From Gammaproteobacteria bacterium (GTDB taxonomy: Bacteria; Pseudomonadota; Gammaproteobacteria; DRLM01), in contig DRLM01000053.1 of NCBI GenBank assembly GCA_011375345.1, forward strand, positions 1 through 56,056: a DNA stretch of 56,056 bases, written 5' to 3'. The notes below the pieces were generated by a model. It searched no databases. It had not been told where the DNA came from and saw only the letters and a list, made by a program, of their open reading frames with translations. Made by a program: the position numbers and the translations under genes. Of the stretch, positions 28,598 through 30,567 are shown one piece after another (within the stretch, counting starts at the first letter, position 1; each line of letters begins with the position of its first letter).

Positions 28598-28802
28598 CTC
28601 TACTCTTGCGTTTCCGTGCCTTGCGATGTCAACCGACGCCGCCGTGCGACGTTAGAATGACAAACAGCCGTGACCGGGTTTGGACTGATGGCAGCCAGGG
28701 CGGATCGCGGGCGTGGGGGGGATGCAAGTGTCAGATGAGGACCGTTTGTTTGTTGCAACAGGCGCGGAATTTGAGACGGCATAGACGGGGAGGAAGCAGA
28801 CA

Positions 28803-29339
28803 CTGGCCGCCACCGAAGCTCTGGAGCGATTTCTCGCCGGAGTGGAAAAACGCGCCCTGCATATGGCGCGGATCGCCACCGGCGATACCGACGAGGCATT
28901 GGACGTGGTACAAGACGCCATGATGAAACTCGTCCAACACTACGCGGACCGCAGCGAGGCCGAGTGGCCGCCGTTGTTTTACCGGGTGTTGAACAACCGC
29001 ATCAACGACTGGCACCGCCGCGGCGCAGTGCGGCGGCGCTGGATGGCGTGGCGCCGCGCGCCGGAGGAGGGCGATGACCATCCTGAGCTGGACTGGCACG
29101 ACCCTGAGGCCCCCGGCACTGAGCGGCGCGTGGCGGGCGAGCGGGCGGCTGAAGCACTGGAACGTGCATTGCGCAGGCTGCCGCCGCGTCAGCAGCAGGC
29201 GTTCATGCTGCGCACCTGGGAAGGTCTGGATGTGGCCCAGACAGCACAAGCCATGGGGTGCTCCGCCGGCAGTGTGAAAACCCATTACTCCCGTGCCGTG
29301 CACACCCTGCGCGAGCAACTTCAGGATCATTGGCCGTGA
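28803..29339 (+). CDS. ECF-like RNA polymerase sigma factor, probable CTG start
   Basis: A sigma-70-family factor with only regions 2 and 4: region 2 around GDTDEALDVVQDAMMKLVQHY, and region 4 LPPRQQQAFMLRTWEGLDVA followed by the HTH CSAGSVKTHYSRAVHTLR. The first ATG/GTG/TTG-type codon in frame is GTG 28842, but it would cut the N-terminal helix and has its purine stretch directly abutting. Upstream the frame reads LAATEALERFLAGVEKRA back to a CTG at 28803, eight bases after GGGGAGGA, with a stop just before. The 178-residue form is therefore proposed. The stop overlaps the next gene as GTGA. Confidence 0.82.
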   Translation: MAATEALERFLAGVEKRALHMARIATGDTDEALDVVQDAMMKLVQHYADRSEAEWPPLFYRVLNNRINDWHRRGAVRRRWMAWRRAPEEGDDHPELDWHDPEAPGTERRVAGERAAEALERALRRLPPRQQQAFMLRTWEGLDVAQTAQAMGCSAGSVKTHYSRAVHTLREQLQDHWP

Positions 29340-29698
29340 CCCCGCGTGACGATGAGCAGGTTTTTCTGGACCACGCCAAGCGTGTGCTGGAGGCGCGGGC
29401 CGAATCCCTGGACGAACTCACCCGCGCCCGTTTGCGTGCCGCGCGCAAGCAGGCCCTGGCCGCCGCAGCGCCTGTTCGCACGCCGTGGAAAGGGCGTGCC
29501 TTCGGGGGCGCTTTCGCCACCGCCGCCGTAGTGGTGCTTGCCGTCGTGTTGTGGTCCGGCCCTGAACAGGGGTTGGATCCGGTGGTTCCCGCTGCTGAAC
29601 TGGATGATATGGAGCTCTTGCTGTCAGGGGAAGAGCTGGAGGTTTTCGAAGACGCGGATTTTTACCTGTGGTTGGCCGATGTGCATGAAACGGGTTAG
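29336..29698 (+). CDS. DUF3619 single-pass membrane protein, candidate anti-sigma factor
   Basis: A 120-residue protein: a charged N-terminal cytoplasmic segment (about 1-48, LDELTRARLRAARKQALAAA), one membrane helix (about 55-72, ATAAVVVLAVVLW), and an acidic C-terminal periplasmic tail (LDDMELLLSGEELEVFEDAD). This resembles DUF3619, often found beside ECF-type sigma factors. The GTG start overlaps the sigma stop. The layout fits an anti-sigma factor, though no zinc-binding anti-sigma motif is present; the role is inferred from position and topology. Confidence 0.8.
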   Translation: MTPRDDEQVFLDHAKRVLEARAESLDELTRARLRAARKQALAAAAPVRTPWKGRAFGGAFATAAVVVLAVVLWSGPEQGLDPVVPAAELDDMELLLSGEELEVFEDADFYLWLADVHETG

Positions 29699-29903
29699 CG
29701 TCGTCTGGTTGTTGATGCTGGTGCTGATCCCTTTTGCGGCAGTGGCAGACGACGCACCGGAAGACGAGTCGCCCTCTCTTGAACTCTTGGAATTTCTCGC
29801 TGATTGGGAAACGGATGACGGTGAATGGGTGGATCCCATGCGCTTTCAAGGTCCGGAATCCCAAACAACAGCAGTACAGGCGGATGAGCGCGATGAAGAT
29901 TAG
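29685..29903 (+). CDS. Small very acidic secreted protein
   Basis: A 72-residue ORF starting at ATG 29685, overlapping the end of the DUF3619 gene by 14 bases. A signal peptide (about 1-21, VVWLLMLVLIPFAAVA) precedes a mature chain of about 51 residues with 19 Asp/Glu and only 2 Arg. I recognise no domain. Its end overlaps the start of the DUF3106 gene, so the four genes from the sigma factor on form an overlapping unit. It could pair electrostatically with the very basic DUF3106 product, which is speculation. Confidence 0.7.
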   Translation: MKRVSVVWLLMLVLIPFAAVADDAPEDESPSLELLEFLADWETDDGEWVDPMRFQGPESQTTAVQADERDED

Positions 29904-30567
29904 AACCCTGATACTGGCCTTTTCCGTGGGGCTCGGCGGGTGGTTGCCGGGAGCTTTCGCCCTGGATTGGTCCTCCCTCAGCCCGGGGGAACAAGCCGTG
30001 CTCAAGCCTTTCGCCGATAAATGGGATCAATTGCCAGCAGATCGTCAGGCCCGTCTGCAACGGGGCGCCCAGCGGTGGGCGGAAATGGATGCGGGTGAAC
30101 GGAAGCTGGCGCAACAACGGTTTAAGCATTGGCGTGAACTGTCACCCGAGCAAAGGGCGAAGATGCGCGAACGTTTCAGGCGATTCAAGGCCTTGCCACC
30201 GGCGGAACAGGCTCGAATCCGGCGGATGTGGCAGTGGTTCAAGGCGCAGCCCCCCGAGCGGCGCCGTAAGCTGCGGCAGGAATGGAAAAGTTTGACACCG
30301 GAACAGCGCCGCAAGGCACGGCAGCAAATCCGTCATGGCGATTTGATGCCCCATGAGAGACGGCGCTTGCAGGAGGGGATCCATGCTTTGCCACAGAGCG
30401 AGCGCCAGCGGCTGAAAGAGCACTGGCGTGAACTGTCGCCCGCTCAGCGGGACCGGGCGCGCGACGCACTGCGGCAGATGACGCCGCGGGAGCGGCATGA
30501 GGCCCTGCAGCGGTTTCGGCACCGCGAGAGCCAGGGGTTTCACCCCCGGGCGCGGCCGCAACGGTAG
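29893..30567 (+). CDS. DUF3106 secreted basic helical-repeat protein
   Basis: A 224-residue protein with a signal peptide (about 1-26, ending PGAFA) and a mature chain built almost wholly of tandem helical repeats. Five copies of exactly 18 residues of the type LSPEQRAKMRERFRRFKA are followed by about six copies of 15-17 residues (such as LPQSERQRLKEHWRE). Each begins with Leu/Met-x-Pro and ends near an aromatic residue; Arg and Lys dominate. This matches DUF3106, a family of unknown function that recalls the periplasmic LTxxQ (CpxP/Spy) stress proteins. ATG 29893 is preferred over 29884 on ribosome-binding-site spacing. Confidence 0.82.
   Translation: MKIRTLILAFSVGLGGWLPGAFALDWSSLSPGEQAVLKPFADKWDQLPADRQARLQRGAQRWAEMDAGERKLAQQRFKHWRELSPEQRAKMRERFRRFKALPPAEQARIRRMWQWFKAQPPERRRKLRQEWKSLTPEQRRKARQQIRHGDLMPHERRRLQEGIHALPQSERQRLKEHWRELSPAQRDRARDALRQMTPRERHEALQRFRHRESQGFHPRARPQR

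Follow-up and report, generated by a model that had tools for sequence, protein, structure and literature searches.

Organization of the locus

The DNA analysed here (the window) comprises 56,056 nt of the forward strand of contig DRLM01000053.1 (assembly GCA_011375345.1), from Gammaproteobacteria bacterium DRLM01. An operon on its plus strand encodes, in order, an ECF sigma factor, a membrane protein resembling an anti-sigma factor, a secreted acidic peptide and a secreted DUF3106 protein (Table 1). All four genes overlap: the sigma-factor and membrane-protein genes by 4 nt (GTGA), the membrane-protein and peptide genes by 14 nt, and the peptide and DUF3106 genes by 11 nt. The four overlapping ORFs of the original prediction are thus all present, and the operon is real and conserved.

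Table 1. Features of the operon, with positions numbered from the first nucleotide of the window
Feature	Position	Strand	Basis
Predicted self-activating promoter, GTCAAC-N16-CGTT (SigAb-type −35 and −10)	28628–28653	+	Sequence match
ECF sigma factor, NF006550/PRK09047	28803–29339	+	NCBIfam NF006550, 240.5 bits; Pfam Sigma70_r2, r4_2
Single-pass membrane protein, AabA/DUF3619-like, presumed anti-sigma factor	29336–29698	+	Position, 4 nt overlap, one hydrophobic segment, acidic C-terminal tail
Conserved periplasmic tail motif, EELEVFEDADFYLWL	29630–29674	+	Family consensus LELYEDLDFYxWL from 81 tails
Secreted acidic peptide, 72 aa, mature form about 51 aa	29685–29903	+	Profile of family, conserved place before DUF3106
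Conserved peptide core, PSLELLEFLADWETDDGEWVDP	29772–29837	+	Invariant L35 and G46; nearly invariant F37, L38 and P51
Secreted basic DUF3106 protein, AabB-like, helical repeat	29893–30567	+	PF11304, 120.8 bits

Sigma factor and relationship to SigAb

The sigma factor scores above the NF006550 cut-off of 173 bits, as do the sigma factors of Acinetobacter guerrae, Frateuria, Nitrospira defluvii and one betaproteobacterium. No ATG, GTG or TTG start preserving the whole of region 2 was found between 28803 and 28845; translation probably starts at the CTG at 28803, which is preceded by a good ribosome-binding site, GGGGAGGAAG. Relatives were collected from whole genomes and named contigs using the window sigma factor as the query. 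Some genomes (G014, G075, G079, G278, G281 and G282) carry a second sigma–DUF3106 pair without the peptide, that is, paralogous circuits.

In A. baumannii, sigAb is followed by aabA, encoding a membrane protein of 107 amino acids, and by aabB, encoding a periplasmic protein with a signal peptide at residues 1–21 (PMC12153292). Each of AabA and AabB reduces the activity of SigAb, SigAb activates its own expression and copper is an activator (PMC12153292). The SigAb promoter was mapped by experiment (−35 GTCAAC, −10 CGTT and a spacer of 17 nt, with 16 tolerated), and the authors termed SigAb Acinetobacter-specific in 2025 (PMC12153292). The comparison was made via a locus of A. guerrae (L049) and not with the A. 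baumannii sequence itself. This locus encodes an NF006550 sigma factor (222 bits; cut-off 173), a membrane protein of 106 amino acids and a third protein that passes the DUF3106 cut-off (31.4 versus 24.3 bits), with GTCAAC-N17-CGTT upstream. Its agreement with the published aabA and aabB in length, overlaps, signal peptide and promoter with a 17 nt spacer suggests that it represents the published SigAb system.

Compared in this way, the SigAb–AabA–AabB operon and the window share an NF006550 sigma factor, a small membrane anti-sigma protein, a periplasmic DUF3106 protein, overlapping genes and the promoter. The Acinetobacter operon differs in having no acidic peptide, and the copper response is that of Acinetobacter. 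Since homologous operons occur outside Acinetobacter, SigAb is not Acinetobacter-specific.

Promoter and regulon

An unguided count of hexamers 5′ of the sigma-factor genes ranked GTCAAC as the most enriched, at 47 of 85 loci compared with 4.1 in shuffled sequences. The complete element GTCAAC-N16/17-CGTT lies within 400 nt upstream at 52 of the 85 loci (mean of 0.04 loci in shuffles), and within this distance its spacer sharply favours 16 nt (44 loci) and 17 nt (eight loci). When sites up to 1100 nt upstream were counted, 72 of 82 loci had the element ahead of the operon, reading TGTCAACC at −35 and GCGTT at −10. The site in the window, which is the sole match to GTCAAC-N16/17-CGTT in the 56 kb (chance 0.18), precedes the operon with a spacer within the 16–17 nt range and has the same core as the SigAb promoter (PMC12153292).

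A scan of the window's own genome gave 15 matches to the promoter pattern compared with 17 for a reversed control, and the remaining 14 matches all fall inside ORFs. As the pattern is no commoner than its control and its other matches are intragenic, no further target can be named. The sigma factor may directly control little beyond the operon itself, in line with the three direct targets of SigAb (PMC12153292).

Membrane protein

The membrane protein consists of 120 amino acids, and R37, W51 and W112 are nearly invariant in a 44-row alignment of its relatives. It had been labelled DUF3619 in the original prediction; the window protein itself falls below the cut-off for this family (PF12279, 18.4 versus 22.2 bits), whereas a fused relative passes it. 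In one relative (L013) a domain with the zinc anti-sigma motif HxxxCxxC (HVRECRQC) takes the place of the N-terminal half, with the tail motif kept as LEFYRWL. A model of a fused relative (see below) has two N-terminal helices (residues 2–17 and 21–45) with pLDDT values of about 70. The membrane protein is presumed to be an anti-sigma factor on three indirect lines: what AabA does in the Acinetobacter operon, the domain swap in L013 and the two N-terminal helices, modelled with moderate confidence, as in CnrY.

AabA has been modelled on SigAb as CnrY on CnrH (PMC12153292). The CnrH–CnrY–CnrX system of Cupriavidus metallidurans is similarly organized, with an ECF sigma factor, a short single-pass anti-sigma factor and a periplasmic partner encoded together. 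It differs from the window in that it has no acidic peptide and in that the DUF3106 protein of the window is a helical repeat with no detectable match among solved structures; profile comparison of the membrane protein with CnrY showed no sequence similarity.

DUF3106 protein and a fusion to the membrane protein in relatives

The DUF3106 protein (224 amino acids) scores above the PF11304 cut-off of 24.3 bits. Its basic character, as originally described, was confirmed, with 52 Lys/Arg and 25 Asp/Glu among 199 mature residues; across operons the median net charge is +20. Modelling in AlphaFold2 gave a regular all-helical repeat (mean pLDDT of 85.7) for which no significant fold match was found in the PDB, and a CpxP-like or CnrX-like fold was rejected on this basis. 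In the literature library searched by DUF number and family accession, no paper names DUF3619 or DUF3106, and no function is described for either.

The locus had been likened to the RseA/RseB and CpxP systems. A classical envelope-stress circuit of either type would share the general layout of a sigma factor, a membrane anti-sigma factor and a periplasmic partner, and in RpoE–RseA–RseB a secreted partner likewise acts on the membrane anti-sigma factor. Family membership was not borne out: RseA and MucB/RseB domains are absent among the Pfam matches at E values of up to 1, and the CpxP/Spy family (LTXXQ, PF07813) reaches 12.8 bits against a cut-off of 24.3. With no RseA, RseB or CpxP match above a Pfam cut-off, no PDB fold match for the DUF3106 protein and a promoter unlike that of RpoE, a circuit of this classical type is highly improbable.

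In one betaproteobacterial lineage (L041–L044), DUF3619 and DUF3106 are fused in a single protein of 303–306 amino acids; that of L042 (303 amino acids) contains both DUF3619 (59.2 bits) and DUF3106 (89.8 bits) above their cut-offs. The fusion is the strongest computed evidence in favour of the two acting together, and argues that they do. The model of the fusion has pLDDT values under 50 in the tail, which is too uncertain to reveal a tail contact. A search of 369 genomes, run without a positive control, returned no further fusions. By eye, a gene for an RDD-family-like membrane protein lies 3′ of the fusion in L041–L044.

Acidic peptide

Counted from residue 22, the mature peptide has 51 residues, 19 acidic and two basic, exactly as originally stated. 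It matches no Pfam or NCBIfam family. The family core reads LLEFLGxWExxDGxWxDP, in which L35 and G46 are invariant among 20 diverse members. A profile search of 276 genomes of the class gave 51 matches in 50 genomes and 42 genera. All but two of these matches (49) precede a DUF3106 match on their own strand at a distance of 59–236 nt, and the two exceptions are weak; 46 also sit downstream of a sigma-factor gene, and of the three DUF3106-adjacent matches that do not, two are at contig ends. The peptide also occurs in Nitrospira, for example in the complete N. defluvii genome. The peptide is thus conserved beside the sigma factor and membrane protein in relatives, as the original prediction called for, and the recurrence of the peptide and its gene order (49 of 276 genomes) is far beyond chance.

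A spurious ORF arising as a by-product of overlapping frames might be suspected from the short length of the reading frame and from its overlap with both neighbours by 11–14 nt. The core is conserved across Gammaproteobacteria and Nitrospira, the profile matches span 42 genera, the signal peptide is retained and dN/dS values for relatives range from 0.11 to 0.57 (eleven pairs), so that an artefact of this kind can practically be dismissed; in relatives the ORF is under purifying selection. Among the sigma–DUF3106 loci the peptide is present in 46 of 77 and absent in 31, and it is therefore dispensable for the core switch. Loci with and without the peptide form clusters on the sigma-factor tree, yet about 12 changes are needed.

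In 53 of 55 operons the peptide carries a net negative charge (median −12), and the original prediction had made opposite charge the driver of the circuit. This part did not hold, as the charges of the peptide and of DUF3106 do not co-vary across operons (ρ = −0.04). A higher DUF3106 charge in operons with the peptide (p = 2 × 10−8, uncorrected for relatedness) found no support from independent pairs on the sigma-factor tree, a test that was uninformative. Mimicry of the anti-sigma tail by the peptide core was also considered and rejected (hhalign P = 0.029, probability 1.7%; p = 0.13–0.23 against column permutations).

Two loci (L092 and L172) retain the peptide and DUF3106 beside an apparent remnant of the anti-sigma tail, and no sigma-factor gene was detected there; an L,D-transpeptidase-like ORF was seen by eye upstream in L092. 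Together with the strict placement of the peptide beside DUF3106, these loci point to DUF3106 as its partner. Most likely, the peptide binds DUF3106 and modulates the hold of DUF3106 on the anti-sigma tail. Direct action of the peptide on the anti-sigma factor, for example by protecting it from a protease or by presenting it to one, would bypass DUF3106. Both the tail and the peptide combine acidic character with a hydrophobic core, and across operons the charge of one correlates with that of the other (ρ = 0.59, not corrected for relatedness). Like-charged segments are, however, improbable direct partners, 49 of the 51 peptide matches adjoin DUF3106 and the peptide stays with DUF3106 where the sigma-factor gene has been lost; we consider direct action unlikely.

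Additional first genes

At 18 loci an additional gene for a secreted protein sits between the promoter site and the sigma-factor gene. LDRKGDRIDNR-type repeats occur in 14 of the 18 proteins (L026, L030, L031, L019, L115, L114, L108, L117, L105, L002, L124, L109, L120 and L006); two of these were scanned against Pfam and yielded only sub-threshold similarity to apolipoproteins. The others are an EF-hand protein (L039), His-rich proteins (L118 and L011) and a Gly-rich protein (L003), which suggests a connection with metals or charged envelope components.

These genes bear on the possibility that the peptide and DUF3106 are outputs of the switch, induced by the sigma factor for periplasmic buffering or as chaperones, and not its regulators. 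An operon that carries a further secreted protein of a charged or metal-binding type as its first gene at 18 loci looks like a carrier of secreted products, and survival of the peptide and DUF3106 in L092 and L172 without a detectable sigma-factor gene fits the same idea. Against it, the DUF3106 protein of Acinetobacter, AabB, lowers SigAb activity (PMC12153292), and one lineage has DUF3106 and the anti-sigma protein as a single polypeptide. We regard a pure output role as a lesser possibility.

Proposed mechanism

One explanation, in which we place about even confidence, treats the locus as a SigAb/AabA/AabB-type ECF switch that activates itself and includes one more part, a tuning peptide that binds DUF3106. 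The sigma factor would transcribe its own operon from GTCAAC-N16-CGTT at 28628, and the short cytoplasmic end of the membrane protein would keep the sigma factor inactive. Secreted DUF3106 would wrap the acidic periplasmic tail (LELYEDLDFYxWL) and so maintain the holding state, with the acidic peptide as a putative periplasmic ligand of DUF3106 that tunes the hold. Most likely the peptide would occupy DUF3106, exposing the tail and releasing the sigma factor, although the sign of this effect is a guess.

The evidence from the present analysis is gene order, conservation, selection, promoter conservation and the two-part fusion in relatives. The function of the promoter, self-activation and inhibition by the AabA-like and AabB-like proteins are carried over from the Acinetobacter version, and would apply here by homology. 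AabB alone inhibits SigAb in Escherichia coli (PMC12153292), which speaks against a simple tail-binding role for DUF3106. The circuit originally proposed is therefore partly supported and largely right, part of it having already been published for Acinetobacter: the layout of sigma factor, membrane anti-sigma factor and periplasmic partner is backed by the experiments on the homologous sigAb–aabA–aabB (PMC12153292) and joint action by the DUF3619–DUF3106 fusion, whereas charge as the driver is not upheld. The new elements are how widely the SigAb-type family is distributed, the conservation of its promoter, the existence of an additional peptide family and the variety of secreted proteins encoded by the first gene at 18 loci.

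More tentatively, the peptide could be an operon-encoded decoy for the co-repressor DUF3106, freeing the tail and setting the threshold of the SigAb-type response. We know of no description of a small secreted peptide that opposes the co-repressor acting on the ECF sigma factor of the same operon. If true, the decoy peptide would be an additional layer of control on a widespread SigAb-type stress response.

Within a broad family that shares one conserved promoter and occurs in many gammaproteobacteria, in betaproteobacteria and in Nitrospira, SigAb becomes the member that has been studied best, and the published promoter mutagenesis and anti-sigma assays are directly transferable to this family. 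Most such systems include a conserved small secreted protein that is absent in Acinetobacter, and the peptide family thereby offers a handle on envelope sensing by the two anti-SigAb proteins.
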